Part shown: positions 7,150 to 64,000 of the stretch, piece after piece
How positions within the stretch are numbered: the first letter of the stretch is position 1
How the letters are laid out: each line of letters begins with the position of its first letter
NCBI RefSeq assembly: GCF_964355755.1
Contig: NC_092680.1
Coordinates: 15,725,001 to 15,789,000, forward strand
DNA length: 64,000 bases
Direction: 5' to 3'
Source of the DNA: Antedon mediterranea
Lineage: Eukaryota; Echinodermata; Crinoidea; Comatulida; Antedonidae
Notes under the pieces: model-generated
The model's input: the letters and a program-made list of their open reading frames with translations, nothing else
What the model was told of the DNA's origin: nothing
Databases searched by the model: none
Position numbers and translations under genes: made by a program

Positions 7150-7762
7150 CTTACCTTTGTCAACAAACTATATTATGTTCTCACCAAACTATAATCTTGT
7201 CACCAGACAATTTTTTTGTCACCAAACTATAATCTTGTCACCAACTATTATTTTGTCACCAAACTATAATCTTGTTACCAAACTATAATCTTGTCACCAA
7301 CTATTATTTTGTCAACAAACTATAATCTTGTCACCAAACTGTTATTTTGTCCCCAAACTATAATCTTGTCACCAGACTGTTATTTTGTCCCCAAACTATA
7401 ATCTTGTCACCAAACTGTTATTTTGTCCCCAAACTATAATCTTGTCACCAGCTATTATTTTGTCACCAAACTATAATATTGTCACCAACTATTATTTTGT
7501 CACCAACTATTTTTTTGTCACCAAACTATTATTTTGTCCCCAAACTATAATCTTGTCACCAGCTATTATTTTGTCACCAAACTATAATATTGTCACCAAC
7601 TATTATTTTGTCACCAAACTATTATTTTGTCACCAAACTATTATTTTGTCACCAAACTATAATCTTGTCACCAACTATTATTTTGTCAACAAACTATAAT
7701 CTTGTCACCAACTATTATTTTGTCAACAAACTATAATATTGTCACCAAACTATTATTTCCAA
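7150..7762. repeat. Minisatellite, 18-19 bp unit
   Basis: About 30 head-to-tail copies of 'ccaaactataatcttgtca' and the variant 'ccaactattattttgtca' occur here. Units alternate irregularly between 18 and 19 bp and between the two spellings. A 104-codon ORF inside is a by-product of the repeat (recurring ILSPN). Confidence 0.9.
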
Positions 7763-9274: not shown

Positions 9275-10055
9275 TAACTTTATAATTTCGTTATTATTTA
9301 ATAAAAACCTTTAACCAAATGGATTGTTTTGATATTAAAGTTGATGTACACTGTACTGTAAACTAGTAGGCCTTGTCAATGGTATACTGTATAATTATAG
9401 AGGATAAAGGATTCTACTCTACATAAGAATAGTTGGACACAAAGATGGCCGGTAGTGTACCACATGACTTTCTAATATCTGTGAACGGAATGTCATAACT
9501 CTTTGAATATATGTCTATGTGAAGAACAATGTGGTTAGTTAGTTAAAATAATGTTCGCAGTAACTTTATAATTTCGTTATTATTTTAACAAACACCTAAG
9601 AGTAGTTGGACACAATGATGGCCGGTAGTGTACCACATGACTTTCTAATATCTTCGAACGGAATGTCATAACTCTTTGAATACCGTATATGTCTATGTGA
9701 AGAACAATGTGGTTAGTTAGTTAAAATAATGTTCGCAGTAACTTTATAATTTCGTTATTATTTTAACAAACACCTAAGAGTAGTTGGACACAATGATGGC
9801 CGGTAGTGTATCACATGACTTTCTATTATCTGTGAACGGAATGTCATAACTCTTTGAATATATGTCTATGTGAAGAACAATGTGGTTAGTTAGTTAAAAT
9901 AATGTTCACATTAACCTTATAATTTCGTTATTATTTTTAAAAAAACCTAAGAATAGTTGGACACAAATATGGCCAGTAGTGTACCACATGACTTTCTATT
10001 ATCTGTGAAAGGAATGTCGTAACTCTTTGAATATGTCTATGTGAAGAACAATGCG
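9275..10055. repeat. Tandem repeat, about 178 bp unit, four copies
   Basis: The phrase 'agttggacaca..gatggcc' starts near 9430, 9605, 9783 and 9955. Each copy is followed by 'accacatgactttct', 'ggaatgtc..aactctttgaa', 'tctatgtgaagaacaatg' and 'aactttataatttcgttatt'. The middle copies are nearly identical and the outer ones are more diverged or partial. It is non-coding and ends about 150 bp before the exon at 10202. Confidence 0.9.
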
Positions 10056-16200: not shown

Positions 16201-19200
16201 AATTTGAGGTTTTTACAAATTGTTAAATGTATTCAAATAAATAAATTATGTATATAATTCTCACTAGAAGTGAATTGAATTTTAGATAATTCTTCTTATT
16301 CAATTGGCACAAAGTCAAAAGTGTTTTAAAAATGTAGTTCTGATAGTTGTCTAATTATTTTGTAGTATTATCTTTATATTAATGAATTAATATTTACAAA
16401 TTAATATTAGATAATCATGAGTTTAATATTTTTATATTACTGTACAGTATATACTCCTTCACCTAGCAAAACTTTGTTTGCTCCAAGATGTGTTTTGGTA
16501 GGTTATGAAAGGGGTATTAGATAAAGGTACCACTCAAAATAACCGTAACAAAATAAATGTATAAAATGTACAATTTCCTGGGGAAAAAATATATTTATGA
16601 ATGTAAACATCTTTGTTTTAATTAAATTTTTTATAGAAAAACAAAAAAACGATATTTTAGCAAAGTGTAAATGCTCTGTGTTTCATAATTTACAATTATC
16701 TCTTTAAAATGTTGCAATAAGCAGTTCTTTGTGAGTTTTTTTACCATTTTTTTTCTTAGTTCAAGGTATCATTCAAGTTCATGTGTTCAATCACCTCAGA
16801 AGGTACAAGTACGATAGTTTAACTACTAAGTATAGATTGCGTGCAACACGCTCTAAAACACATCTCGTTTCAATTATACGGAATGTTCGCGAGTTCAACT
16901 AAAATTACCCTTGTCTCTAAAAGGAAAATGCGAGCGTATAATATTTTGGTTTTTTGTCTCTGTCTATCATACGTGTATGTACAGACTTATTTATTTTTAA
17001 GTTCCTTTAAAAATACACTGATGAAAAGACAGTTCAACTATGAATCTCTTTTAATATAAATCGGCTTTTAAAGTATATCTAAAAGTCATTGTGTTCCCAA
17101 CAAATTTACTTAATGTTATGTACTTTACTCAAGCCATAGCCAGTGGGAACAAAGCTCTCTTTTTCCTAAAGTGCCCTTTTCAAACTAGACACCAGCAATG
17201 AATGTTGTAATAAATAGGGCTAAGCATAAATCGATGATCTTTGTGGAACATTGAATGCCAATGCCATATAAAAATCTTGGCTACATGGTTGGTTCTGTTT
17301 ATTCAGTTGTAAGATCTTTGTTTACTATTTAAAATGTTATTTTCATTTAAAGATATATGGTCTTCCTAAATATGAACAAATACTGTAGATTACATAATTG
17401 TTTACCTATTCAATTTGTGGTAAAAAAAAACTATTATGTGACATTAATATGGCCTCTTTAACATTATATTTTTCAAGGGAATATCTTTATGTTTGCAATA
17501 GGTATAAGAAGATTCTTGCGAGTTCCATATACAGTAATTCTAGAGTTTGGTTTATAAAAAATGAAAAAGATCTGAGACTTTGGATTGAAAGATGTGTTAA
17601 CAATGATGATAGATATGTATCACAATCAAGGTGATAACAGATGTTATGAAAGGTTGTTGATAAATGTGTTAAGAAAGCTGTGAAGATAACAAATTGTCAT
17701 CTTGTTGAAAGAGATGTTGACTGAAAGAATATAAATATTGAATAGAAATAATGTTGGAATTAAGATTTACTCCAGTAGTAGTGCACCACCATGAGATCTT
17801 ACTCTTAGGTGCAGCACCATGAGATCTTACTCTTAGATGCAGCACCATGAGATCTTACTCTTTTGTGCAGCACCATGAGATCTTACTCTTTTGTGCAGCA
17901 CCATGAGATCTTACTCTTTTGTGCAGCACCATGAGATCTTACTCTTTTGTGCAGCACCATGAGATCTTACTCTTAGATTTTTTTTTTTTATTTTTTATTT
18001 AATTTTCAGGCAAACATACATGACAACACAGCGGTGCAGCACCCTGAGGATTGCCATGAGTGCAAAGCACTATCGAGATGGCTCTCCATATACTGCACTA
18101 GAACATATAAGACAAACATATACACAAGATGCTCTACATAGACAAAGACTTATTATTAAGTCTTTGGGAGTGGAGTTGTAAATTGTCATGAGAAAAAAAC
18201 CCTGACATATGACAGGACTTGAACCCAGGACCCTTAGATTGGTAGCCAAGCATCATAACCACCAAGCCACAGCTCCACTCCTGCACCATGAGATCTTACT
18301 CTTAGATGCAGCACCATGAGATCTTATCCTTAGATGCAGCACCATGAGATCTTACACTTACAGTATGTGCAGCACCATGAGATCTTACTCTTAGATGCAG
18401 CACCATGAGATCTTACTCTTAGATGCAGCACCATGAGATCTTACTCTTATATGCAGCACCAAGAAATCTTACTCTTAGATGCAGCACCATGAGATCTTAC
18501 TCTTAGATGCAGCACCATGAGATCTTACTCTTATATGCAGCACCAAGAAATCTTACTCTTAGATGCAGCACCATGAGATCTTACTCTTAGATGCAGCACC
18601 ATGAGATCTTACTCTAGTCTTAGATGCAGCACCATGAGATCTTACTCTTAGATGCAGCACCATGAGATCCTACTCTTAGATGCAGCACCATGAGATCTTA
18701 CTCTTAGATGCAGCATATGCACCACCATGGGATCTTACTCTTATATGCAGCACCATGGTATCATACTTTTATGTTCAGCACCATGGGGTCTTACTCTTGT
18801 GTTCAGTACCATATGATCTTACTTTTTTGTGTTAGCACCAAGAAATCTTACTCTTATATGCATGCACCATGGGATTTTACTTTTATGTTTAGCATTATGA
18901 GATCTTACTGTCCTATGTGCATCACCATGGGATCTTACCGTCCTATGTTCAGCAACATGAGACCTTACTGTCCCATGTGTAGCACTATGAGATCTTACTG
19001 TCCAGTGTGCAGCACCACAGGACCTTACTGTCCCATATGCAGTACCATGAGATTATACTGTCCTGTGTGCAGCACCATGATATCTTACTGTCCAGTGTAC
19101 AGCACTATGAGATCTTACTGTCCCATATGCAGCACCATATGATCTTACTGTCCTGTGTGCAGCACCATGATATCTTACTGTCCTGTGTGCAGCACCATGA

Positions 19201-22200
19201 TATAATATCTTATGTGCAGCACCATGAGATTTAACTGTCTTGTGTGCAGCACCATGAGATTTAATTGTCCTGTGTGCAGCACCATAAGATCTTACTGTCC
19301 TGTGTGCAGCACTATGAGACCTTTCTGAACATAACTGTCTTGTGCGCAGCACCATGAGATTTTACTGTCCTGTGTGCAGCACCATGAGACCTTACTGAAC
19401 ATTACTGTCTTGTGTGCAGCACCATGAGACCTTACTGTCCTGTGTGCAGCACCATGAGACCTTACTGTCCTGTGTGCAGCACCATGAGACCTTACAGTCC
19501 TACTGTCTGGAGTGCCGCGTCATGTAGGACCTCACTGTACTATGTGGAGTACCACATGACTTCACTGTACTGTGTGGAGCACAATTTGTCCTCACTATCC
19601 TTTGTTCAGAATTAGCAGTCCTTTTTCCATGATAGTTATCTCTGCCAACAGTCAGTAATGTTTGGTTTTATCTGGAAGGAAAGTGTCCATCCATGAGAGA
19701 TAGTAAACATCATTGGACAGTATAGGTTGATATTTTGTTAATTGTTTTTTTTTCTTATTGTTTCTTTCAGTGCTGTTGAAGCTATGCATGATAGCAAGAC
19801 ACCATTTAGCAATATTGAGTCTCTACTAAAATCATCAATCTACCATAAACAACAGCTTAATGAAAGGTCCGCTGCTCTCAGGTACAGTATGTTGTTTTTT
19901 TATAGATATTTATTTCATACAAATCCCTTAGCAAGTACCTCAAACAATTACAGGATAAATTCATTCAATCTTGTATTTTATTTTTTCACCACATAAACAA
20001 CAAAATGCTTTACATACTAATTATACAAAATCGTAGCCAAATGGGATTTAAGGCAGAGTCTCAAATATATATATCATGCTTATAAACTAATATATTATAA
20101 AATGATCTCATTTGAGGCTAGGTACTGTAGTAGAAACATTCATGTGTTTCAACCCGGGCAGTAGGTCGAGATTGAACCCGGTACTTGAACCCGGGATTTA
20201 AAGGGGCTTGCTCCAGCTGTAAGCCTTAAAAACAGTAGGTTACAGATATTATAATTGACAAATTCAACTAGCTATCAATTTGCTAATACGGCTTGTGAGG
20301 CTCCATATTTTTGTTGTGTCATTCTCTTTAATTTAATTCTTTTTCTTAGATTTGATGGAAAAAGAATGTTGATATGTAATTGACTTTTTCTTATAGGGTG
20401 CAATCAAAACAAGAAAAACGGTCAAGTATTAGTTCAAGTCCTCAACGACAACTACTTTCAGGTACAGTATAAAAGCCATTGGCAATATAACCAGAAACGT
20501 TCGCGACTTGAAACTTTCGTGAATCGGTTACATTGTCCATTTTCGCAACATAAAACTTTTTCACGAAGTAAATACTTTAACAAGGTACAGTAGCATCAAT
20601 CCATCATGGGTGCAACCTTTTTAGTTACAATGCATGTACTCTGTGAAGGCGGGCAATGGACGAGAGAAGCCCTTGATCAATGTTAGGACAAATCAAGGTA
20701 CTTTAAACAGTCCTGGCTTTGTTTGTATCAAACCTGTTAGTGACGGTAATCATCGCTGTTGGTTTCGATTTAATAAATTAAAAATAAATAAATAAAATAA
20801 AATAATGCATTGCTGTTTGACCACGCCCAGGCATCATTGTACAGTATTTTCTCACTTAAAAAGAATACGACGTCCAATTTAACCGCCAGTATGTGATAAA
20901 GCAAACAAAACAGATTGCTATCAGTAGTAGGCACATGTGTTCTGAAATTACTTGTATGAGTGTACGGTATTATTAATACTCGATAATTCCTGAAAATGGT
21001 TTACGGCATAAAACTTTCGTAAATATCATTTTTGGAAAAAGGTATTTTCCATCTTAAGGAATTATAAGTTATATTTGTTTCCAGTGGCAGATCTAGGATC
21101 TGACAAAGGGGGGTTTGGGGGTGGGGTGGCCACGAAAGTTGCAAACGAGGTGCGTAGGACCGAGTGGGGTTACAGTAAGTTTAGGAAGGGGTGTCCCTCT
21201 CCGGAGCCTCAGACAATTTTTTCAAAAATACTGTAGATGCTTGCTTGCACACACGGACCAGGGCGGTAATTAACTGAAATGGAAAATGGTGTATTTTTGG
21301 AGAGTGATGACGTCAGCATTCACACGAGGAAAATAACTTGTGGTTATTTTCCAAAGATTTAAACTTTTGAATTCATAAATAGTAATTAAATTCTTAGCTC
21401 TTTCACTTTGTAGGCCTATTTACACAACTAATGCTTACCCCAGCTCTAGGCCTACTCTTCTTAATTAAAAAAAGATTAAGATGCGTCGAATCCAAGTCTA
21501 GCGATGGTCGCGGGTATGTTGCATCTTTTTTTTTTTTTTGAGAATTAAAGGGAATGGCTAGCCCTAGATCCACCACTGGCTTCATTACTTATTTGCATTG
21601 GAACAGGTTTCTTTTTTTCTAAAAACTTGTTCTGATCTTCATCCAACCTAAAAGAATGTATGAGAATCAGGACACAGTGTTACTTTCGTTTCGTAATTCG
21701 TTTCGTAATATTTATTCAACCAAAAAACATATTATTTAACATAAATATTAAACATTTTAACATAACATTTCTACTTATTTTTTGGCTGGGATCTGGTATA
21801 GAAGTATTAAACTTGTCTCAATCAGACCCCTAACAAAATAAATATTAGAAATAGTTTAATAAGGAAAAAGGTATACAGTACGCCTTATTTAGACTTAAAA
21901 TTATATAAGTAATTATGAAAATAAATATATGTAAATGACAGTTATATTTTTACTCATGGTAATTAGACAAATAAAAACACTTTATACATTTCTTAAAAAC
22001 TTTAATGTTAATATTTAAAAGAAAATTCACTGTATTGATTCAAGTTCACAAACATTCAGAGTAAATGGAAATTTATTTACAATATGCTTTATACAAACAT
22101 AGTCTCATGTCATGTGGAGTTCATTAGTGTGTTTATCTACAGTATCTACATAATTGAGGAAAATGCATTTAAATATTTAAGATGTTATTTTAGACTGTCT

Positions 22201-40844: not shown

Positions 40845-43800
40845 ATGGATGAAATCAACGACATAGTAATCAAGAATGCATGCCTTGCCAAAACGAAAGG
40901 TTTACTTCTTCATAAATTTTCTGAAGCACTCAAAACCATCACCATACCCCCTCAGCCATCTGAAAACACTAGTAACAATACATGTACCTCCAGAAACAGT
41001 AACTACCACCTTAAACTATTGGTGTTATCAAGCTTGGATATGCTAGCAAGTAGAGGTGGATGCAACTCAGCAGAGTCTATCTTGAGAAATCTCATTCAGG
41101 AACAAAAGCTTATTGAAATTTTGGTAGGTTTTAAATTAAGATATATTGCCCCCCTGAAATTGTTGTTGAATAATGCTAGACCAGGATGAAGTTAAGATGG
41201 GTGACATCCGGCTTTTTACATTTCTGTGACAAGCTATCCTTTGTGACCAATTTTCACCTACAGTACTTGTCAGTCATTCGATTCTGTTTCGAGCTGTCGC
41301 GTGTTTACATCAATCACATGACCAAAATAATGTTACGGCTTTCTTACTTTAGTAAAACATAAAGAAATGATAAGCCTGAAAATAATTAACTATAATTGCA
41401 ATGTATATTACCTATACTAGCAGCGGTTTTTTGTCCACTCCAATAGCCCGGATGTACACAATGATTATGGTACAAAAATGCTATCATTTCCGAGCCAGAT
41501 TACACCAATCTTAATTTCCTGATCTATGCCATTTTAATGTCATTTAGTATAACTTTAACCAAAAACATACATCTTTAAAACTAATTCTTCAAACAAGTAA
41601 AGTAGATTAAATTAAGATTTAGAGTATCAAGGGTATGTCAGGTAGACAATCAACTTTGTATAAAAAATGTTAACAGTATACTGTTTCATTTATGTTGTCA
41701 TTATCTTTAGTATTTTCATAATACAATGCTCATGATTGGTTGTCATCATTATCAATCATGATAATACTATTTTCATTTTTATTATTATAAATATTATTAT
41801 TATTATATTATTGTTTTCCATTTTAATTCTTTCAGATCAATTGCCTTAGTGACAATGATGCATTTGTGGCATATAGTGCATGTAAAGCAACAGCTACTCT
41901 TCTTTGTTCTCTGAAATCTCTGGTAATTATTTTATTTTTGGTACATATTTTAATGAAAAATTAATCTCTAATCTACTGCCAGGGTTGTGTAACTCATGAC
42001 TTATTCAACTCCACTTTATAATAAGTGTGATAGATTATAAAATAGTTTATCCATCTTCAAATTGTTTAATTGTATTTTTTTTGTAGGATTTCTATAAGCT
42101 TGCTGATTCACTGATAACCAATTCATTCAACAAGTATAAGTCAATTGAGATGTATGAATCATGTAAAGGTGAAATGCAAAAAAAGACTGTCTATCCCTGG
42201 GAAGTTGTGACCACTGTACTCAACAGAATCGGCACACAAGAAAACAAGGCTAAGTCATGTTGCATGAATGATGGTTATCAGCCTGGTCCTGAAAATGGTC
42301 TAATAATATTTGCTTATATTTTGTCTTAAATTTAATGTGAAAACATTCTCAAAATGTTTACAGAATTACAGCAATATAAAATAAATTCATCTGGTTCCGA
42401 ATATAACTGGAAAATTATTAGTTTTATACCAATTGTGTATGTATTTTTTGGTTCAACATAAAATTAATAATTTTTCAGTTAAGAATTAGAGCACGTTCAT
42501 TATCACCATTAGATAAGGCTATTCCCAATTGTCACACATGAAGCGTAATTGACATCGAGTTCGAACAATACCATGAAAGCCCCAGTGGTCTAATGGTTAG
42601 GACATCTGCATATCAAGCAGGCGGTCCGAGTTCGAGTCTCGGTTGGGGCGACTTTTTCTCATTCTCACAGATTTCCTCATCTTTATCGTTTCAAATTAAT
42701 TAATTAAATTTCAGTATATCACCGGGCGGTTTAGAATTAATGTTCTTTGCCTATTGTGTTTATATATATAAAAGTATCTCTTCGGAGATCCCGTCTCGTG
42801 AATAAAAATACTGAAAGATGAGGGCGTATCAATTTGATCTCTGTTGCGCGTGCGTACAACTGAGGACTACTGCTGTTCCGCCGTACCACGCCGAGAATGT
42901 TACAGAGTCGTTATCCAATCGAGTTCGAACAATACCATGAAAGCCCCAGTGGTCTAATGGTTAGGACATCTGCATATCAAGCAGGCGGTCCGAGTTCGAG
43001 TCTCGGTTGGGGCGACTTTTTCTCATTCTCACAGATTTCCTCATCTTTATCGTTTCAAATTAATTAATTAAATTTCAGTATATCACCGGGCGGTTTGGAA
43101 TTAATGTTCTTTGCCTATTGTGTTTATATATATATATATACTTACTTTTGAACCATAATAGTATTACAACATTTATGTTATTGTTTTAGGTTTTATAACT
43201 TATTGCTGTAAGACGGTGCTTGAATTACTTAACAATCCAGAAGAATATAACACCATATGTTACATGATAGAGGATAGTAGCAAACAAGAGGATGAGAATG
43301 AGAACTGCTTAATGTCTATACTGTTACTTATTGAAGCGAGTCTTAAATACGCAATCAAGAATCTGACTGAAGATGTAGTATCCATCCTGAAAAGTTGTGA
43401 AAGCTTCTTTGCGTGTATCGCAGATAGTCTCAACAGATGTATCAATCCACTTGTCTATAAGAAAATACTGGACATGCTAAATGTCTACCTTTTCAACATG
43501 AATGAAAATGAGAAACTCAAATGCACAGTTATATTATCAACCAAACTGCTGTCTATGACCAAGGGTGACCTGTTTGAAAATGCTCCATACAAAAATGTAT
43601 ACATGGCGTTTGGTGGATCTGTTTTTAGTGATTATTCAAATCTTGGAGATGAACATCAAAAAGGAGATATGGAAATGTTGAGGAAGCTGTCTGTGCTGGT
43701 TGTTAAAAACTGTGAGGTGATAAACATGACATCTTCACTTACAAACTTACATTCTGATGTAACTAAAAGTTTTAACAAACTTTCACGTTATGTAAATTCA

Positions 43801-45042
43801 AAATTAGGTTTCAAATCAAACACCATTTGTGATTGGCTATTCCACCTGTATGCTGATAATGATGCTAGTCTTATTTGTATAATGTTCTTGCTGTTAAGAA
43901 TACATAATCAGAGTTTATCAACTGACATTAAATCAGATCCACATGAAGTGTTTCAAAGATTCCTAAAGACAGTTGCTTATGATCATAGCGTTTTGCTGGA
44001 TCTGTTGATTTCAGATGAAACTGAATTTTTAGCTTATTTTGTGCAATATTTGCATACAGTTGTTTCCAGTTGGTCGGCTTTTAAGGAACTTCATTCAAAT
44101 TTAGATTTACCAAGCACAGATAATGAAGTATATAAAACAAAACCAGAAGATATACCTAGTGTAAGTAAAGGAACAGTAATGAATAACTCATGGCAAAGAG
44201 AAGAGAATGAACCAACAGGAATTATAATTAAACCAGAAAAAAATCAAAATATTGATAAAGATTTAGAATGTTTAAACAAAGAACATGAAACACTTGATTC
44301 CACACCATATAACATTGATGGTTTGATAAAAGAAAGTCAGAACGAATTTGAAGATGGAACAAAGCATTCTAAAATAGAGGCTTTGAAAAGAGATCATGAT
44401 GATAATAATGTCATGAATGAATTAGGTGAAATGGATAAAAAAGCTAGATATTCAGTGAACTATGAAGGTAGTGGCTTGCCAATTGGTGATGCTACTACAG
44501 TTTCTTCTAAAGTACATTGTAGTGACAGTAAGCCTTCAAACCAGTGTACTGGTGACCTGGAGTTTGTAAACCAGTGTACTGGTGACATTGGGCCTGTAAA
44601 CCGGTGTACTGGTGACATTGGGCCTGTAAACCAGTGTACTGGTGACAGTGAGACTGTAAACCAGTTTACTGGTGACAGTGAGACTGCAAACCAGTGTACT
44701 GGTGACAGCAAGACTGCAAACCAGTGTACTGGTGACCTGGAATCTGGAAACCAGTGTACTGGTGACATTTTAATGAGTACTCCTCTGGTTCTTACCTCTA
44801 GCAATGATAATATAGATATCACCACAAAAGTTGACGTCATCGGCTTAAATGATAGCTCTGATAATGATAGCTTTGATAATGATTCAGACGATGATGATTC
44901 CTCATTAGATAAAACAATGACCACTTTGATAAGGTTAAGACTGTCGATTGAGAGAATGGTCAATCGGAGGTTATTTCCTTTTCATGTGAACTCACTACTG
45001 AAATTATTAGAGAATGTCGAAGGATTGTATGAAAATCAGTAA
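40845..45042 (+). CDS. LINS1: Protein Lines homolog 1
   Basis: Four coding exons (40845-41123, 41836-41922, 42087-42297, 43190-45042) join in frame to 809 codons plus stop; the human protein is about 757 aa. Family signals: the N-terminal helical block (residues about 40-125), AFGGSVFSDY near residue 330, VLLDLLISDETEFLAYFVQY near residue 460, and the C-terminal block (MVNRRLFPFHVNSLLKLLEN) at the very end. Lines proteins are helical-repeat proteins named after Drosophila lines, a regulator of embryonic patterning and Wnt-related signalling; human LINS1 is linked to cognitive development. Between the two conserved C-terminal blocks sit a Lys/Glu-rich linker, an 8-copy decapeptide repeat (residues about 643-722) and an acidic Ser/Asp stretch (NDSSDNDSFDNDSDDDD). 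The start is the first ATG of the exon after a 5' acceptor; an upstream coding exon cannot be excluded. Confidence 0.9.
41128..41585. repeat. R1-related repeat in LINS1 intron 1
   Basis: The left edge 'ttaagatatattgccccc' and the right edge 'aacatacatctttaaaa' are loosely inverted. The segment near the right ('gccattttaatgtcattta') matches the R1 copy at 35895-36145. The middle is unique. It begins only a few bases after the exon donor at 41124. Confidence 0.5.
42579..42650 (+). tRNA. tRNA-like gene, anticodon ATC (Asp codon GAT), copy 1
   Basis: The 72-nt sequence folds as a cloverleaf. The acceptor gccccag pairs with ttggggc with a G discriminator. The D arm is tggtctaatggttagga (box A). 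The anticodon stem tctgc/gcagg encloses loop atatcaa with T33. The T stem ccgag/ctcgg is perfect and encloses ttcgagt (box B). A TTTTT pol III terminator follows at 42653-42657. Anticodon ATC (42612-42614) would read Asp GAU, unlike the usual GTC; the G73 discriminator fits Asp, while the D arm resembles eukaryotic tRNA-Glu. There is no intron and CCA is not encoded. It lies in the last LINS1 intron on the same strand. It may be functional, a decoded variant or a pseudogene. Confidence 0.75.
42943..43014 (+). tRNA. tRNA-like gene, anticodon ATC, copy 2
   Basis: This is identical over all 72 nt to the copy at 42579-42650 and lies within the duplicated block. The same pol III terminator run begins at 43017. 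Both copies keep every stem, as would be expected either under selection or if the duplication is very recent. Confidence 0.75.
44539..44778 (+). repeat. 30 bp coding minisatellite in LINS1
   Basis: Eight 30 bp units each encode a decapeptide beginning NQCTGD (one NR, one NQF), followed by variable LEFV, IGPV, SETV, SETA, SKTA, LESG or ILMS. Because 30 is a multiple of three, unit gain or loss keeps the frame. Variation falls mostly in the last four codons. Confidence 0.93.
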
Positions 45043-46344: not shown

Positions 46345-49300
46345 TTATCTTCTGTAGCGATATCTCTTAAATCTAAACCAAAGCTGGAATATACTGTTAC
46401 TAAATTGACAGCGAAAGCCATGCCTGTGGCTGTATTCCCATTCTCTGTTCACAATCTTGAAAGCAATATCCTATGATAAGAAAACAAATATTGTACATAA
46501 ATGAAACAACATACTGTATTCTTCCAACATTAGTTGTAGAAAAAAACCTTTTACTTTTACATCTCGCCCTGATTCGGTCTGGCACCCTGAGAAAAATTTT
46601 GCAAGCATGCTTTCAGATCGAGCACGAATTCAATTATTCATTATCATGATCTTATGATTTCAGAAAACAAATGGTTTCTTGATCTACGTATTTGAAGCCC
46701 TAATAAGGAATGGATTTAAATCGTACGAGTTTGGTGTGAATGATCCTATGCTTTACAACTAAACCCATTTTGAACGATATTTTTCTCAGGGCACCGGACT
46801 GAATCTGGAGCATGATGTAAAAGTGGGGTTCTACTCTACTAAGGTACACAACCAGGATACGTGCAAACAGTTTTCAGATTCAAGGTATTACAGCTAATGT
46901 TTAAAATAAATTAGATGAAACCAAGCATTTACCTCGTATGGTGGTCCAGCATTGAACCGCAACACAGCAAAATCTTCATTGGTGGTATCAGGAGTTACTG
47001 TGTACTCTGGTGCAGTTCTTTTGTCAATCAAATCAGGGTAAAATATCTGAAATTTGACAATTAAAAACATTAGGAATTACTAACACAGTTTGAAGCAGTT
47101 GATTTTGTACAGAAGAGACAAACAAATGTGCAGAATTATATTCAAACATGGGTGTTAATTTAATAAGTAATAAGAAGTTTACAATAATGCACTATTTTAG
47201 TTTATGAAGCGCCCTTTACCGGAGCCTCACAGTGCAACATGAAAAGAATAGCTACTGAAATAGGTGAGTTTTCAAGACAGATTTTAATTGAAAAGGGGAT
47301 GGAGTGTGACGGATCGAACAAGGAAGTTACCAGTTCCAGATCTCTGGTGCTTGAGCAAAGAAGCACGGATTATAGGTTGGTTCTAGGTGGTGTTAGCATA
47401 AGAGGATCCGTTTCAGAACTTACTTCAGATAGTAAATTATATATTGATGTTATGAAAGTACTCACATTAAACTTGTATCCTTGCACAACCTTTGGTGGTG
47501 GGTTGTCCATATCATAATGAGTCTGGTTATACTTGTTCCATTCAAAACCCTACATTATTAAACAAATAATATTTACTACAATATTGAACACACTGTTTTA
47601 TGAATCAATACTAATGTATTAAAACAAATGAATTTATTGCTTCACTAGTAACTTCAGTAAAAATTTATAATAATTACTTTTATTATTCTATTGTTAAATA
47701 ATCAGAAAATCAATAATTTCTAGTACTTACTGTGTGGACACGGTTAAAGAAACGTGGTTTCCTGGGACGATATTTGTCAGACCAGAGGTACGGCTCCTGT
47801 TTCTTGATGTCCATCTCAACTGCAAAAGTTGCTTCATCTGACCCCATACCCATCCGTGCCTTCTTGATGAACTCACTTTCAGCTGTATCCTATAAAAAAT
47901 AATAAAGAATATTGCAATGAAAAATGTTATCCCTTTTACACAGACAGTGAAAATGAGGATTTGGTTGAGAATGTGTTACAATTTTAATACATGGAACACC
48001 GAATTGCGAAATTGTACATTGATGTTGCCTGCAAGATGGAATGGAGGCAGTGCACAGTTTATCAGAGGAAAAGGTGAAAGATACAAGTTCTGGTGGAAAG
48101 AAGATGATGGCTCTGCAGGTGGAAGAGTAAGAGCTTTCAGGTAAAGTTATTGTGAGGAGAAAGAGTGACAGAAATATTTTATTAGTGAGGTACAGGATAA
48201 GCAAGTAATTTTTTTTTTCATACAAAATGCACGAAATGCTTTACATAAAGCTAATCAAAAACAGTTTTGTGAGGAAAAACTGCCTTAAGCTGCTTTCTCA
48301 TCACAACAGACACCCATGTTCATGCTCGACGTGAAAGCACACTTAACACTTGCAATATATTTCTCAGGGCACCCGACCGAATACAGGCGCGGTGTGGAAA
48401 CTGCTTAAACGGGATTTGAACTCATGATCATTAAACACTTACCTTAGCTGATCCAGTGGCCATTAGCCTTTTACGTAGGACTTCCAATTTAGCCATGTCT
48501 TCTTCTGGATCAAAGAGGATAGTGTCTGGTGGCAGATCCCGTGTTCTCATTAGTGCTGGTGAATACCTGCCCTCATTGTAGTCATCATGACTCTGCTGTT
48601 GAAGATCTTCTTCTGTGATCAATGCTTCCACTCTAAAAAAAGTAAAAGAGATTCATTTAGTGCATCAAAAATTGGAATAAGTAAATCGAAGTACTGTCTT
48701 GTAACAATATACACTGTAGATTGGTAGTACCAACCAAAGCTAAGCTGTTCAACCCTTTTGTATCTTGTATCAAGACAAAAGCACCAGTCATGCAGGCTTG
48801 GCTGATGCTGGTGCAGAATGAAGGGAAATAATAGAAGCCTTATAACAAAACTTAACATTATTTACCATAAAATATATTGTAGTATATAAGTTTTTGTTTC
48901 TATATATATATCTCATATGCCTAAATTATATTTAGTAATTGGTATTACCATAAATCTTCTAATTGTAACCCTGGGTTATTATTCTTTGATTGTTTTTTTA
49001 GGGTGGGTTACTATTAGAAGGGGGGTTACTATTAGAGTAGTGGGTTACTATTACTAATCTTAATCTAACTTTATTTTATTATTAAACTCTTTATTTATTT
49101 TTTAAACTCAAAAACACTCAATCCTCCTCCCCCACTATCGAGATCAACACGAATTATCTCCTTATTTTCAAAATATGGCTGCATCATAAGTTTTTGTGAC
49201 TATTAGAGCAGTGGGTTACTATTAGAGTGTGGGTTACTATTAGAAGATTTACGGTATATTCTTTTTAACTGCTGCAGTATAATAGTAATGCAAATTTGAC

Positions 49301-56315: not shown

Positions 56316-56559
56316 ATCTATATAAAAACTGTTTTGACCTTTCTTAACGAAAATCTTGTCTGGGATATTTCAGAAAAAAAAAGCAGCAGCGTAAACAATA
56401 CGAAAACAAAAACGCCACCTAACGGTTGGAGAGTTGTTTTTTTGGTAAAAAATAGATGGCGCTGTTTTATTTTTAAGTTATTAGAGTGTTGTACAGTACT
56501 GCAATTACAAATCAACATGAAAGAGTGAATTTTGATTAATAATTTTGAATTCTCTAATT
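56316..56559 (-). promoter_or_regulatory. CACTIN 5' UTR and proximal promoter region
   Basis: The stretch lies between the CACTIN start codon and the repeat array. It is AT-rich with no clear TATA or initiator. Only about 245 bp separates the ATG from the first palindrome, so promoter elements may overlap the repeat. Confidence 0.4.
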
Positions 56560-57004
56560 AGTTATCCGCTTGGTATACCAAGCGGATAACTCCTTGTTAT
56601 TGTATGAGATCAACAGTTTTTTTCTGTATTATTAGTTATCCGCTTGGTATACCAAGCGGATAACTCCTTGTTATTGTATGAGATCAACATTTTTTTTCTG
56701 TATTATTAGTTATCCGCTTGGTATACCAAGCGGATAACTCCTTGTTATTGTATGAGATCAACATTTTTTTTCTGTATTATTAGTTATCCGCTTAGTAGCG
56801 GATAACTCCTTGTAATCGTCCTGTTTCATCATCTTTTTTTTTTTTTTTTTCTGTATTATTAGTTATCCGCTTAGTAGCGGATAACTCCTTGTAACTGTAT
56901 GAAATCATCTTTTTCTGTATTATTAGTTATCCGCTTAGTAGCGGATAACTCCTTGTAATCGTCCTGTTTCATCATATTTTTTTTTTTTTTTTTTTTCTGT
57001 ATTA
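56560..57004. repeat. Array of six hairpin-forming palindromes
   Basis: Three perfect 32 bp palindromes (56560-56591, 56634-56665, 56708-56739) have arms agttatccgcttggta and its complement. Three shorter ones (56782-56807, 56861-56886, 56925-56950) have 11 bp arms agttatccgct around tagt. Spacing is 74, 74, 74, 79 and 64 bp. Each is followed by 'ccttgttattgtatgagatc' or a variant, a T run and 'ctgtattatt'. The stretch directly precedes the 1.51 kb units. Confidence 0.95.
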
Positions 57005-58518
57005 TACTTCTTTCCTTCTGTCATTTTTGTGCGTCGCGTTTCTCTGAAACGTGTAAACAGAACAAATCGTAACTTTGTCAACATATCGACATTTACGTGA
57101 ACTTGTGCACCTCCTATTTTTGAATGACGTCAGAGTTGCGCAACGTGACTTACGCGCGATTTTATGAATTTCAATGATTGATCATAGACTAAAAACCAAA
57201 CATAACTTTGTTTTGACACTTTGTGAAAATTTAAGTTACATCAAGCGCAAACTTTCTATGGATTAAAAATAGCATCTTTCACAAAAAGTTACGCGCGCAC
57301 GCGCGTTTAAAATTTTAGAGTGCGAAAAATCAACTTCTAATCAACTTTCTATGCGTTTCATGTCATTTTGAGCATGTCAAAAATTCCCACGCGCGCGAAA
57401 CTTTTTACGCACGCGGTGCACACGTAGCGTTAAAAACATATTTTTTTCGCGTGATTTATGTTTTTTCAGCCTTTTATAGTAATGTTACCAACTTTTAAAC
57501 AATTTCGACTTAAAATTACGTCATACGAGCACGTCGAATTAAATAATTTGCACGCGTTTCTGGTGAAAAAGTTCAAAAATTCGTCAAAATTATGCCTATT
57601 TTTAAACAGTCATAGATTCTAAACTACATGGAGAACTTTTTTTTAATTACATATTCTGGAAGTTGATGAGTTGTAGATATCGAATCATGCATTAATATGG
57701 CTAACCGGACATTGTAACGTCATCGTATGGCCACGCAAATATAAAATATAGGATTTTTGTCTCTTTCGTCATAGTTCATCACATTTAATAGAGCGCATCT
57801 CCACTTATTCGTTGTCCATTTTCACCCCGATTTTAATATATTCTAGGTCAATCAACTATCTTTTGCATGAATTAAAAATTTTTTAATTTTTTCAACGTCA
57901 TCATGCCTAAAAATTTAAATTACGTTGGTCATTAATTTCATCTTTACAGTAAATTTTAATCTGTTATAGCTCGTAAGAATAAAATGTGATAATCACGATT
58001 AAAACGTTTTCAGGAAGCTATTGTATTGTAGATACAAAATCATGTGAAAATTGCTCCAATCGAATGTTGTGACGTCATCATATGGCCAGTTAAATACAAA
58101 AAGTCGTATTTTCATCTTTTGCGTTATATTTCATTACATTTAAAAGAGCGCGCATCAATATTTCACGTATTCAAATTTCTTCTACACGTTAATATGTTGT
58201 TGCTGAGATAATTTCATTCTGAAATTTCTACTTTTGCATTTCATTTTGAAACCGTCAAGATGTTCAAAATTACAATAAAATACGGGTCCCGTAATTTCAC
58301 CTATTTTACACTGTTTGTGATATGTATACAGATTGTACTGTGTATACTATGTATATGACACAAAATAACAGAATTCAGAAATAACAACATATCATATTCT
58401 TCAGTTCAGGTCATAATGCCTTAATATTTTTCTGTGTGCAATATTCTAACGTATGACGTGCACATGGCGTTTGTCGAGCGGATAACTAACTCGTCATAGT
58501 GACGAGTTTCATGTCTAG
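57005..58518 (+). mobile_element. Helitron-like tandem unit 1 (type A)
   Basis: This non-coding unit of about 1.51 kb starts 'acttctttccttctgtcatt' and ends with subterminal 'gcggataact', a stem-loop at 58488-58508 (aactcgtca-tag-tgacgagtt), 6 nt, and CTAG. A terminal hairpin before CTRR is the Helitron 3' signature. The 'gcggataact' is the inverse of 'agttatccgc' in the preceding palindromes, which would be subterminal inverted repeats. Sections near 57640-57800 and 58010-58170 resemble each other, so the unit contains an old internal duplication. No Rep-helicase is encoded. Confidence 0.7.
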
Positions 58519-60032
58519 TTCTTTCTTTCTGTCAATTTTGTGTCTTGCGTATCTCAAAAACTTGTAAACAAAACATTTTATAACTTTGTCAACATGTGGG
58601 CATTCACGTGAAATTGTGCACCTCCTATTGTGAATGACGTCAGAATTGCGCAACGTGATTTACGCGCATTTTAACGAATTTCGCGTATTTAACATAGATC
58701 GAAAACCATATAGCAATTTAAATTGCAACTTAACAAAAGTTTAATTTATATCTCGCACTAACTGACTGTGGAAAAAAAATGGCATGTTTCACACGAAGTT
58801 ACGCGCGCACGGGCGTTTAAAATTTCAAAATGCGAAAAATCAATTTCTAATAAACTTTCTACGCGTTTCATGTCATTTTGAGCAAGTCAAAAAATCCCAT
58901 GCGCGCGCATATTTTTACTCGCACGGTGCGCACGTAGCGTTGAAAATAAATTTTTTTCGCGTGATTCATGTTTTTCCAGCCTTTTCTAGTAATTTTACCA
59001 ACTTTTGAACAATTTTGACCTAAAATTACGTCATACGGGCACATCCAATTGGATAATTTACGTGCGTTTTTGATGAAAAAGTTCAAAAATTTGTCAAAAT
59101 TATGCCTTTTTTTAAACATTCATAGATTCTAAACTACGAGGTGAACCTTTTTTTAAATTATATATTCTGGAAGTTGATGAGTTGTAGATATGGAATCATG
59201 CATTAATATGGCTAATCGGACATTATAAGGTCATCGTATGGCCACGCGAATATAAAATATAGGATTTTTATATCTTTCGTCATAGCGCATCACATTTAAT
59301 AGAGCGCATCTCCACTTATCCGTTTTTTATTTTCACCCCGATTTTGATATTGTCTAGGTGAACGAACTATCTTTCGCATGAGTTAAAAATATTTTAATTT
59401 TTATGACGTCATCATGTCGAAAATTGTAAATAACGTGGGTGACTTATTTTCATCTTTACAGTAAATTTCAATCTGTTATAGCTCATCAGAATAAAAAGTG
59501 ATAATCATGATTAAAACGTTTTCTGGAAGCTAAGGGATTGTAGATACGAATTCATGTAAACATTTTGCCAATGGGATGTTGTGACGTCATCATATGGCCA
59601 GTTGAATAAAAAAAGGCGTATTTTCATATTTTGCGTAATATTTCATCACATTTAAAAGGGCGCGCATCTATATTTTACGTATTCAAATTTCTTCTACTCG
59701 CTAATATGTTGTTGCTGAGATAATATCCTTCCGAAATTGTTATTTTAGTGTTTCATTTTGATACCGTCGCCATGTTAAAAAATGGAATAAATGGCGGGTC
59801 CCGTAATTTCACCTATTCTACACTGTATGTAATATGTATACAGATTATACTGTTTATACTGTACTAAATGACACAAAATTGATAGAATTCAGCACTAACA
59901 ACATATTATATTCTTCAGATCAGGTCATAATGCCATAATCTTTTTCTGTGTGCAAAATTCTAACGCATGACGTGCACGTGGCGTTTGTCGTGCGGATAAC
60001 TAACTCGTCAAAGTGACGAGTTTCATGTCTAG
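58519..60032 (+). mobile_element. Helitron-like tandem unit 2 (type B)
   Basis: It joins unit 1 exactly at CTAG with no spacer. The layout is the same, ending in a stem-loop at 60002-60022 and CTAG at 60029-60032. It differs from units 1 and 3 throughout: for example 'tttcgcgtatttaacataga' replaces 'tttcaatgattgatcataga', and near the end it has 'cattttgccaatgggatgtt' and 'ggcgggtcccgtaatttcac'. Confidence 0.7.
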
Positions 60033-61542
60033 TACTTCTTTCCTTCTGTCATTTTTGTGCGTCGCGTTTCTCTAAAACGTGTAAACAGAACATATCGTAA
60101 CTTTGTCAACATATCGACATTTACGTGAACTTGTGCACCTCCTATTTTTGAATGACGTCAGAGTTGCGCAACGTGACTTACGCGCGATTTTATGAATTTC
60201 AATGATTGATCATAGACTAAAAACGAAACATAATTTTGTTTTGACACTTTGTGAAAATTTAAGTCACATCAAGCGCAAACTTCCTATGGATTAAAAATAG
60301 CATGTTTCACAAAAAGTTACGCGCGCACGCGCGTTTAAAATTTCAGAGTGCGAAAAATCAACTTCTAATCAACTTTCTATGCGTTTCATGTCATTTTGAG
60401 CATGTCAAAAATTCCCACGCGCGCGAAACTTTTTACGCACGCGGTGCACACTTAGAGTTAAAAACATATTTTTTTCGCGTGATTCATGTTTTTTCAGCCT
60501 TTTATAGTAATGTTACCAACCTTTAAACAATTTCGACTTAAAATTACGTCATACGAGCACGTCGAATTAAATAATTTGCACGCGTTTCTGGTGAAAAAGT
60601 TCAAAAATTCGTCAAAATTATGCCTATTTTTAAACAGTCATAGATTCTAAACTACATGGAGAACTTTTTTTTAATTACATATTCTGGAAGTTGATGAGTT
60701 GTAGATATCGAATCATGCATTAATATGGCTAACCGGACATTGTGACGTCATCGTATGGCCACGCGAATATAAAATATAGGATTTTTGTCTCTTTCGTCAT
60801 AGCTCATCACATTTAATAGAGCGCATCTCCACTTATTCGTAGTCGATTTTCACCCCGATTTTAATATATTCTAGGTCAATCAACTATCTTTTGCATGAAT
60901 TAAACATTTTTTAATTTTTTTATCGTCATCATGCCTAAAAATTTAAATTACGTTGGTCATTAATTTCATCTTTACAGTAAATTTTAATCTGTTATAGCTC
61001 GTAAGAATAAAATGTGATAATCAGGATTAAAACGTTTTCAGGAAGCTATTGTATTGTAGATACAAAATCATGTGAAAATTGTGCCAATCGAATGTTGTGA
61101 CGTCATCATATGGCCAGTTAAATACAAAAAGTCGTATTTTCATCTTTTGCGTTATATTTCATTACATTTAAAAGAGCGCGCATCAATATTTCACGTTTTC
61201 AAATTTCTTCTACACGTTAATATGTTGTTGCTGAGATAATTTCATTCTGAAATTTCTACTTTTGCATTTCATTTTGAAACCGTCAAGATGTTAAAAATTA
61301 CAATAAAATACGGGTCCCGTAATTTCACCTATTTTACACTGTTTGTGATATGTATACAGATTGTACTGTGTATACTATATGACACAAAATAACAGAATTC
61401 AGAAATAACAACATATCATATTCTTCAGTTCAGGTCATAATGCCTTAATATTTTTCTGTGTGCAATATTCTAACGTATGACGTGCACGTGGCGTTTGTCG
61501 AGCGGATAACTAACTCGTCAAAGTGACGAGTTTCATGTCTAG
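60033..61542 (+). mobile_element. Helitron-like tandem unit 3 (type A)
   Basis: It is nearly identical to unit 1 along its whole length, closer than to its neighbours, with the same starting phrase and CTAG at 61539-61542. The similarity indicates recent copying of a two-unit block or conversion between alternate units. Confidence 0.7.
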
Positions 61543-63069
61543 TTCTTCTTTCCATCCTTCTTTTTTGTGGATCGCGTTTCTCTAAAATGTGTAAACATAA
61601 CATTTCATAACTTTGACAACATATGGGCATTTACGTGAAGTTGTGCACCTCCTATTTTTGAATGACGTCATAGTTGCGCAACGTGACTTACGCGCAATTT
61701 TATGAATTTCAATGATTGATCATAGATTAAAAACCAAAAGTCATTTAGTATTGACACTTTGACAAAATTTAAGTCATATCAGGGGCAAACTTTCTACGGA
61801 TTAGAAATGGCATGTTTCACAAGAAGTTACGCACGCACGCGCATTTAAAATTTCAAAATGCGCAAAATTAATTTCTAATCAACTTTTTATGCGTTTCTTG
61901 TCATTTTGAGCATGTCAAAAATTCCCACGGGCGCGCAATTTTTTACGCACGCGGTGCGCACGTAGCGTTAAAAACATTTTTTTTTTCTTGAATTATATTT
62001 TTCAAGTCTTTCCTAGTAATTTTGAAAACAATTTAGACCTTTTCCAATTTAAATAACGCCACACGAACACGTTGAATTAAACATTTCATGCGCGTTTTTT
62101 ATGAAAAAGCTTAAAAAATCGTCAAAATTTTGTCTTTTTTTAAACAGTCATAGTTTCTAAAGTAAACCGTGAACCGTTTATTTTTATTACAAAATCTAGA
62201 AGTTGATGAGTTGTAGATATCGGATCATGCATCGATAAGGCTAAAAAAACATTGTGACGTCATCGTATGGCCACACGAATGTAAAATATAGGATTTTTGT
62301 CTCTTTCGTTATTGCTCATCACATTCAATGGAGCGCATCACGCTTATCTGTTTTCCTTTTTCTCCTACATTTATTTATACATTGTGTAGGTCAATCAACT
62401 TTCTTTAGCATGAGATAAAAATATTTTAATTTTTATGACGTCATCATGCCTAAAAATTTTAATTACGTGGGTCATTAATTTCATCTTTACAGTAAATTTT
62501 ATTCTGTAATAGCTCGTAAGAATAAAATGTGATAATCACGATTAAAACGTTTTCTGGAAGCAATTGGATTGTAGATACGAATTCATGTAAACATTTTGCC
62601 AATCGGATGTTGTGACGTCATCATATGGCCAGTTGAATAAAAAAAGTTGTATTTTTATATTTTGCGTAATAGTTCATCACATTTAAAAGGGTGCGCATCT
62701 ATATTTTACGTATTCAAATTTCTTCTACACGTTAATATGTTGTTCCTAAGATAATTTCCTTCTGAAATTGCTATCTAAGTGTTTCATTTTGATACCGTCG
62801 CCATGTTAAAAATTGGAATAAATGGCGGGTCCCGTAATTTCACCTATTCTACACTGTATGTAATATGTATACAGATTATACTGTTTGCATGTATATACTA
62901 TATGACACAAAATTGACAGAATTCAGCACTAACAGCATATCATATTCTTCAGTTCTTGTCATAATGCCATAATCTTTATCTGTGTGCAATATTCCAACGT
63001 ATGACGTGCACGTGGCGTTTGTCGTGGTGCGGATAACTAACTCGTCAAAGTGACGAGTTTCATGTCTAG
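61543..63069 (+). mobile_element. Helitron-like tandem unit 4 (A/B mosaic)
   Basis: The first half follows type A ('tttcaatgattgatcataga'). The last third follows type B ('cattttgccaatcggatgtt', 'ggcgggtcccgtaatttcac', 'cagattatactgttt'). It ends with 'gcggataactaactcgtca', the stem-loop and CTAG at 63066-63069. Confidence 0.7.
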
Positions 63070-63071
63070 TT

Positions 63072-63097
63072 AGTTATCCGCTTAGTAGCGGATAACT
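63072..63097. repeat. Palindrome at the start of the next unit
   Basis: Arms agttatccgct and agcggataact flank tagt, identical to the short palindromes at 56782-56950 and followed by the same 'tgtaatcgtcctgtt' and T run. It marks a fresh hairpin-bearing start after four units. Confidence 0.9.
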
Positions 63098-64000
63098 GCT
63101 TGTAATCGTCCTGTTACTTTTTTTTTTTTTTTTCTTATTTCTTTCTCCCTCATTTTTGTGTCTCGCGTATCTCAAAAACTTGTAAACATAACATTTCATT
63201 ACTTTGTCAACATATGGGCATTTACGTGAAGTTGTGCACCTCCTATTTTTTAATGACGTCAGAGTTGCGGAACGTGACTTACGTGCGATTTTATGATTTT
63301 TTATGATTGATCATAGACTAAAAACCAAGCATAAATTTGTTTTGACACTTTGTGAAAATTTAAGTCATATCAAGGGAAAACTTTTTGTGGATTAAAAATG
63401 GCATGTTTTACAAGACGTTACGCGCGCACGCGCATTTCTCCTCTATTTTTGTGTCTCGCGTATCTAAAAAACGTGTAAACATAACATTTCATAACTTTGT
63501 CAACATATGGGCATTCACGTGAAGTTGTGCACCTCCTATTGTGAATGACGTCAGAAATGCGCAACGTGACTTACGCACAATTTTATGAATTTCGCGTATT
63601 TAACATAGATTTAAAACCATAGAACAATTTAAATTGAAACTTAGCAAAAGTTTAATTTATATCATGCGCTAACTTTCTGTGGATAAACAATTGCGTGTTG
63701 TACACAAAGTTACGCGCGCACGCTAATTTAAAATTCAAAATGCAAAAAATCAATTTCTAATCAACTTTCTACGTGTTTCATGTCATTTTAAGCATGTAAA
63801 AAATTCCCACGCGCGCGCTTTTTTTTACGCGCGCGGTGCGAACGTAGCGTTGAAAACCATTTTTCTCTCGTGATTTATGTTTTCAAGCCTTTTATAGTAA
63901 TTTTACCAACTTTGAAACAATTTCGACTTCAAATTACGTCATACGGGCACGTCGAATTGGATAATTTATGTGCGTTTTTTAGGAAAAAGTTCAAACATTT
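63098..64000 (+). mobile_element. Helitron-like tandem unit 5, broken and cut by the window end
   Basis: It starts as type A (gcacctcc at 63235), but at about 63437, inside 'cacgcgcatttctcctctat', it restarts with a type B head (gcacctcc again at 63529, 294 bp later; 'tttcgcgtatttaacataga'). The unit then runs to the window edge. The restart looks like the joint of an unequal exchange. Confidence 0.7.

Follow-up and report, generated by a model that had tools for sequence, protein, structure and literature searches.

The window analysed here is a 64,000-nt stretch of the Antedon mediterranea genome (NC_092680.1, positions 15,725,001–15,789,000, forward strand), and its right-hand end carries a head-to-tail array of transposable elements that are most probably non-autonomous Helentrons (HINEs). 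Six blocks, beginning at position 56558 and each composed of a palindrome (TTAGTTATCCGC...GCGGATAACTCCTTG), a leader and a T-run, precede a series of ~1.51-kb units. The units end at 58518, 60032, 61542 and 63069, with end-to-end distances of 1514, 1510 and 1527 nt. At each of these four 3' ends, AACTCGTCA-nnn-TGACGAGTT forms a 9-bp stem and is followed by the 6 nt TCATGT and by CTAG (58488–58518 at the first, plus strand), to which the next unit adjoins directly; the ends, one per unit, can also be written GCGGATAACTAACTCGTCA-nnn-TGACGAGTTTCATGTCTAG. Palindromes of the form AGTTATCCGC...GCGGATAACT start at 56560, 56634, 56708, 56782, 56861, 56925 and 63072, and GCGGATAACT begins ~40 nt upstream of every unit end. 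The initial annotation had described gapless ~1.51-kb units ending in a 9-bp stem-loop, 6 nt and CTAG, AGTTATCCGC-type palindromes at the outer start, GCGGATAACT near each 3' end, and CACTIN nearby, all of which we recovered. Three CactinC_cactus matches lie at C11:15771348–15772564 on the minus strand (window 46348–47564), ~9 kb from the array. In the 354-Mb assembly searched, which comprises 18 contigs (labelled C1, C2, ... C11; L-numbers denote fetched loci), a 31-nt 3'-end pattern has 827 exact matches, and the reversed control has 0, so the pattern exceeds chance.

The array runs beyond the window end (64000) to C11:15794859, which is 69859 in window numbering (locus L013), and contains eight cores. 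Its 5' and 3' ends, eight of each, can be written from left to right as the balanced word (((((( )))) ()) ()). The outer 5' end reads TTAGTTATCC. Six 5' ends are piled at the left, while the units U2, U3 and U4 lack a 5' palindrome and are not complete copies. The leaders and cores belong to distinguishable types, here called alpha to epsilon, and all parts lie on the plus strand. The outermost element, E1 (epsilon), has its 5' end and leader at 56558–56631, from the TTAGTTATCCGC palindrome to CTGTATTA, where the next insertion splits it; its own core is the last of the array (68338–69859, beyond the window), to which it is paired by type and by uninterrupted leader–core joins elsewhere. The 5' ends and interrupted leaders of E2 (epsilon, 56632–56705), E3 (epsilon, 56706–56779), E4 (beta, 56780–56858) and E5 (alpha, 56859–56922) follow. 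Their displaced cores are, respectively, 64942–66465 beyond the window, U4 (61543–63069), U3 (60033–61542, 98.2% identical to U1) and U2 (58519–60032, with stem-loop and CTAG at its end). The innermost element, E6 (beta, 56923–58518), is uninterrupted and consists of the 5' palindrome, T-run leader, core U1, 3' subterminal inverted repeat (subTIR), stem-loop and CTAG. E7 (gamma), with its own 5' palindrome, occupies 63070–64000 and continues to 64941 (L013:941).

Read in order, the window leaders are epsilon, epsilon, epsilon, beta, alpha and, in E6, beta, whereas the cores are beta (E6), alpha, beta, epsilon, gamma, epsilon, gamma and epsilon. This is an exact mirror, to which the two gamma elements bring their own 5' ends. 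A gamma element plus an epsilon core occurs twice, at 63070–66465 and 66466–69859, and the two pairs are 98.6% identical, which may reflect composite movement or two separate arrivals at a hot spot. The gamma elements also contain a ~290-nt tandem duplication of the core start with no 3' end between the copies (window 63134–63427), found in E7 and at the matching place in the gamma copy at 66.5 kb in window numbering (L013).

The association between leader and core types was established on uninterrupted copies. The alpha leader (AACTGTATGAAATC) stands with the core TTCTTTCTTTCTGTCAATTTTG in 8/9 copies, the ninth having lost the core start, and the beta leader (AATCGTCCTGTTTCATCA) with ACTTCTTTCnTTCTGTCATTTTTGTGCG in 5/6, the sixth continuing into a different palindrome. 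The gamma leader (AATCGTCCTGTTAC) is joined to CTTATTTCTTTCTCC in 3/3 copies and the delta leader (AATCGTCCTGGATC) to ATTCTTCTTTCTTTCTCCTCC in 2/2, while the uninterrupted form of the epsilon leader (TTATTGTATGAGATC) with its core TTCTTCTTTCCATCC is known only from a search with the joined leader and core. The query of that search, 204 nt in total, combined the outermost leader (56558–56631) with 130 nt from the start of the last core (68338 onward); the two parts lie 11.7 kb apart in the array. The junction was spanned in all 40 scored candidates (from 1,835 first-look candidates) at 93–100% identity, 39 of them at 95% or more. A wrong-pair control, the E1 leader with the alpha core, reached at most 93% over its full length, and its matches above 95% were leader-only or began at position 31 or 60. 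Within the array, cores of the same type are 98.2–98.8% identical and those of different types 84.5–89.9%, with direct neighbours at 85.7–86.6%. Because same-type cores are more alike than direct neighbours, the neighbouring cores do not stem from one local amplification.

Mirror order was also scored at 16 loci, picked before parsing from among the places found by the unit search, 14 of which have leaders outside the innermost element. One 5'-end match to the left of the window array, due to chance, was dropped from the parse. Under mirror order, 23 of the 31 leaders match a core, which equals the maximum when order is ignored, and the same order gives 16; 23 was reached by 10/20,000 shuffles within loci and by 0/20,000 across loci. 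A looser first permutation run, in which the tolerance merged types and no epsilon copy was included, gave 22/31 for mirror and 19 for same order, with 69/5,000 within-locus and 0/5,000 across-locus shuffles. Strict stack matching paired 18/28. Three of these pairs are doubtful, two because their core scores (23 and 28.5) are very weak and one because it needed the loosest tag tolerance; of the ten misses, most come after a leader or core that is absent, and one reflects the lack of an epsilon library copy. At C10:12.80, a leader cut late (after CTGTATTATACTTA) pairs with a core cut late (starting at TTTCCTTCCG). For 74 array 3' ends, 200 nt of sequence on the right side was available; a six-unit library detected family sequence there in 63 and no match in 11, and all 63 adjoin the first ~100 nt of an element. 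The six reference units contain 13–19 TNATT sites each, 0–2 of them within the first 100 nt.

The elements share one plan, in which a TT[A/G]GTTATCCGC palindrome is followed by a T-rich leader, by a core of ~1.5 kb that has no long open reading frames (ORFs), and by the 3' subTIR GCGGATAAC, a stem-loop and CTAG. Thus, as in Helentrons and HINEs, subTIRs are present at both ends (TTAGTTATCCGC and GCGGATAACTAA), the 5' one being palindromic, and a stem-loop (AACTCGTCA/TGACGAGTT) lies near the 3' end. The stem-loop, 6 nt and CTAG also fit the CTRR after a hairpin of canonical Helitrons (Helitron1), but the 5' end is TT[A/G]GTTATCC, not TC. The initial annotation had proposed non-autonomous Helitrons or Helentrons and had suggested checking whether single copies start with TC. 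The Helentron layout holds, whereas the 5' TT and the endonuclease of an autonomous relative described below speak against a canonical Helitron.

Copies of the family are dispersed. The unit search gave 95 matches on several contigs (24 of 2,901 candidates scored). The first 100 of the 827 exact 3' ends lie on C1 and C2; 47 of them have another exact end at a distance of 6 kb or less and 53 do not, and the close neighbour pairs are on the same strand in 29/29 cases. Over 18 loci, 80 (one a chance match) plus 76 recognised ends lie on one strand and 2 plus 0 on the other. Of 20 apparently isolated 3' ends that were fetched, 11 have a recognised 5' palindrome and nine do not; ten of the 11 span 1.53–1.69 kb and one (L027) ~0.61 kb. 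Eight of the 20 sit in the leader region of a relative, one (L036) lies beside a core interior and 11, including L031, have no match in their surroundings. Dispersed single copies ending at the same CTAG and insertion without target-site duplication agree with the initial annotation, the latter at one insertion with empty sites; the single copies measure ~1.55 kb.

This insertion is L031. Its joined flanks match from before to well past the junction in 41/57 rows, and in 8/8 fetched copies the join reads TTTA^TTTATTTA, with no target duplication; seven show no length difference at the join and L051 has one extra TTTA, which is a microsatellite step. L031 is hosted by a repeat whose 5' end is palindromic (GGTTATATGC...GCATATAACC) and whose leader is T-rich; it therefore lies in the leader of a different family of similar appearance. 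The eight fetched places (L044–L051) belong to this second high-copy repeat, with its GGTTATATGC..GCATATAACC end and TTTA-rich leader; since some copies have several consecutive 5' ends, the same kind of nesting may have occurred there. With nine joined-flank queries, all 40 scored candidates fell to the L031 join. Seven of the other joins were then searched separately, and no uninterrupted site was found for them: the flanks were unique or, for L036, lay in a repeat with its halves apart. Flanks were read at nine chosen sites (the window array, L012 and seven of the 20 isolated copies), and 9/9 have TNA to the left and TT to the right; excluded from this set were L027 and L041, which lack TNA on their left side, and L029 and L042, which are preceded by CTAG. 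The base after CTAG is T in 100/100 recognised 3' ends and TT in 90 (38 loci), while inside arrays some 5' ends are preceded by a plain T-run instead of TNA. As the flanking Ts leave the number of Ts at the cut unfixed, A^T and T^T cuts are both possible. Insertion into TT or T-rich DNA without target duplication, the latter judged at one insertion, is again the Helentron and HINE pattern.

We interpret the array as a stack of HINEs, each inserted in the T-rich leader of a resident copy, and place the probability of this reading at roughly 0.88. An element would insert into T-rich DNA, commonly at TNA^TT, without target duplication, and its favoured target within relatives would be the leader just inside the 5' end (...TTTTCTGTATTA^TTCTTTC...). 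The newcomer would split the resident leader, leaving the resident 5' end on the left and displacing the resident core to the right, and with repeated insertion the 5' ends would accumulate as a block, to the right of which the cores stand in mirror order. For the window, the proposed order from outermost to innermost is E1 (epsilon), E2 (epsilon), E3 (epsilon), E4 (beta), E5 (alpha) and E6 (beta), with the gamma elements E7 and E8 inserted in the leaders of E2 and E1, respectively. Nesting at the leader is seen in the window array itself, and it presumably extends beyond the loci examined. Two causes of the hot spot can be considered: the elements may simply prefer long T-rich TNA^TT sites, or they may home to the 5' hairpin. 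It is conceivable, though we rather doubt it, that Helentrons home to the resident 5' leader (hairpin plus T-run), self-nesting being the preferred route and a safe-harbour strategy. If so, the 5' 'minisatellite' of such elements would be a record of past nestings that build satellite-like arrays, and relatives with other 5' palindromes (the L031 host) and clustered autonomous elements would obey the same rule. The order of the parts and their sequence types favour recursive nesting at a hot spot, which would be one way in which Helentron-type elements can build satellite-like DNA; it gives a readable insertion order and accounts for stacked 5' repeats, and mirror pairing together with uninterrupted joins is a test applicable to other Helitron arrays and satellite-like repeats.

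Several observations weigh against the nesting interpretation. Only 4/16 loci are fully balanced, namely the window array, C5:9.14, C9:13.63 and C3:29.21, the last with a half-deleted palindrome counted. C5:30.32, C7:27.45 and others lack 5' ends, whereas C6:15.26, C5:17.08 and L012 have 5' ends without cores; the causes that can be seen are half-deleted or fused palindromes (C3:29.21 and C5:17.79), closing ends from related families, and composite elements. To explain the unbalanced loci we invoke deletion, composite transposition and families that went unrecognised, as judged by eye. The isolated copy L036 adjoins interior core sequence (1/20 fetched). The types were defined after the leaders had been seen, and the library takes its epsilon entry from the window join that the joined search confirmed. 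Without that entry the mirror score is 18/31 (maximum 18; same order 14; 846/20,000 within-locus shuffles), without the window it is 18/26 (maximum 18; same order 13; 176/20,000), and without both it is 16/26 (maximum 16; same order 13; 1670/20,000), with 0/20,000 across-locus shuffles in all three. Order alone is therefore only weakly significant outside the window, though mirror always equals the maximum. Finally, the genome searches found no Rep-encoding element with the exact ends of the window type; the autonomous copy examined is a relative. Between host-like flanks (TCA/TTT), L012 has two 5' ends but a single 3' end, which suggests that transposition can begin at an outer 5' end and terminate once the first 3' end is reached, as proposed for Fusarium Helitrons in the available text of PMC5148889.

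The initial annotation attributed the gapless joining to rolling-circle read-through, and read-through or circle concatemers, in which one transposition inserts a multimer of the same element, would indeed yield a head-to-tail, gapless, single-strand array such as this one. Joined-end amplicons are reported for a Fusarium Helitron subgroup in the available text of PMC5148889, and the outcome resembles the rolling-circle amplification of truncated Helitrons that PMC12628747 credits to Xiong et al. The adjacent cores are, however, much less alike than same-type cores further apart, internal units lack 5' ends while 5' ends are piled outside, leaders and cores pair as mirror images, and the outermost leader and the last core are joined uninterrupted elsewhere. 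These features contradict read-through as the origin of the window array and make it very improbable, although some CTAG/TTAGTTATCC junctions elsewhere could be of such origin. These junctions, present at window 63069/63070 and at other places, are also what is expected if a second element lands beside the CTAG of the first instead of in its leader, like the site-preference dimers in Drosophila (McGurk and Barbash, as cited by PMC12628747). Yet three of the four internal window junctions join CTAG to the remainder of a leader without a 5' end, CTAG/TTAG junctions could also come from insertion at TTA^TTAG where leaders are stacked, and in the window array each gamma element is followed by the continuation of the epsilon core, so that such end-to-end insertion, too, has little chance of explaining the array.

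The remaining alternative, an ordinary satellite in which a 1.51-kb unit was expanded by unequal crossing-over, draws on the regular ~1.51-kb spacing and on the loss of leaders and cores in some arrays, which suggests recombination. A satellite would be confined to homogeneous arrays, whereas single copies with defined ends and an empty site exist, the neighbouring cores (85.7–86.6% alike) are not homogenised, and 53/100 listed exact 3' ends have no other within 6 kb, even though 8/20 fetched copies of this kind are in the leader of a relative. We consider this origin the most improbable of all, and nested insertion at the leader remains the preferred explanation.

A search of the genome with the PF14214 (Helitron_like_N) profile gave 87 matches, of which 50 in one score class (E 3.5e-37 to 3.2e-32) were taken; 36/50 have open frames of at least 3,000 aa. 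The copy at C8:24041139–24057787 (16,649 nt) starts with TTGGTTATCCGCAAC...GTTGCGGATAACC, ends with GCGGATAACCCGAACTCGTCAAAGTGACGAGTTCAAATCTAG and has no further recognised end inside. It carries a 3,070-aa frame antisense to its termini, which was scanned as two pieces of 2,361 and 708 aa (3,069 aa covered) and matches Helitron_like_N (5.6e-37), PIF1 (7.1e-28), Exo_endo_phos (3.1e-9), OTU (3.8e-10) and DUF6570, the N-terminal piece also matching Herpes_teg_N. Rep, helicase and endonuclease together are the Helentron set in the text available from PMC4067079, and possession of the Helentron endonuclease sets this relative apart from canonical Helitrons. It shares with the window type the palindromic 5' end plan and the 3' stem-loop with CTAG; the initial annotation's call for an autonomous Rep-helicase relative was thus answered for the terminal plan, not for the exact ends. 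The window-type elements are 74–81% identical to it in the 5' part and ~82% in the last ~60 nt in two of three tested. Beside it lies a 1,235-nt t-type element that corresponds to its first ~1,150 nt (94.5%) and last 62 nt (91%) and is an internal-deletion derivative. From the shared ends and this derivative we infer that the window family may be mobilised in trans by an autonomous Helentron through rolling-circle chemistry. The reading of the 1.5-kb units as the 3' part of an autonomous element, downstream of its ORF in inverse orientation, was dropped because the ORF is antisense within an element of the same terminal plan. The portions available of PMC4067079 and PMC5148889 describe a few Helentrons and Helitron2 elements that have antisense ORFs. 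The large Rep frames also form same-strand clusters with 20–48 kb spacing (26/50 rows; 17/17 neighbour pairs on the same strand) at C8:799805–936138, C1:14509036–14554478, C1:23049359–23174901, C3:20304795–20361319 and C4:19884407–19945938, possibly as nested or tandem autonomous elements.

Elsewhere in the window, a 626-aa open frame at 43162–45042 has a 30-nt tandem repeat coding NQCTGD-like motifs, and two tRNA genes with equal Rfam scores lie 364 nt apart (42579–42650 and 42943–43014); Rfam at gathering scores detected nothing beyond these two tRNAs. Minisatellite arrays are present at 7156–7758 (19/37-nt units), 9424–10053 (173-nt) and 17781–19596 (28/30-nt).

A search of titles and abstract openings, with most subscription papers outside its scope, found no description of mirror-ordered nested Helentron arrays. 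The Helentrons and HINEs (DINE-1) of PMC4067079, as far as its available text goes, share with the Antedon family the palindromic subTIRs near the 5' end, a 3' subTIR ~40–60 nt from the end, a 3' palindrome, insertion into TT or T-rich DNA and a Rep-helicase-endonuclease partner, and one Helentron with an antisense ORF, from D. ananassae, is reported there; unlike those, the Antedon copies end in CTAG and build mirror-ordered nested arrays. In the plant Helitron arrays of Xiong et al. 2016, as summarised by PMC12628747, tandem Helitron-derived arrays with many 5' ends also occur, but many of them combine several 5' ends with a single 3' end and are attributed to rolling-circle amplification, whereas every core of the window array retains its 3' end. 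The closest literature is the oyster HINE work and the Fusarium self-insertion proposal, each to the extent of its available text. Cg_HINE of the Pacific oyster (PMC7492417) represents non-autonomous Helentrons that spread satellite-like repeats, with T-rich insertion and no target-site duplication; its arrays are central repeats within one element, whereas in Antedon the core of the element is itself what repeats. In Fusarium oxysporum, FoHeli (Helitron2; PMC5148889) shares asymmetric terminal inverted repeats, hairpins, reversed ORFs and, in FoHeli1 and 2, the TNAT insertion preference; several 5' termini with one 3' terminus occur there too, and self-insertion was proposed to explain them. 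The kind of event is thus already known; the Fusarium cases are short 5' duplications with one nested example, whereas the Antedon stack comprises eight elements, keeps its displaced cores and has its nesting tested by order and by uninterrupted joins, and this deep mirrored stack is the new part.

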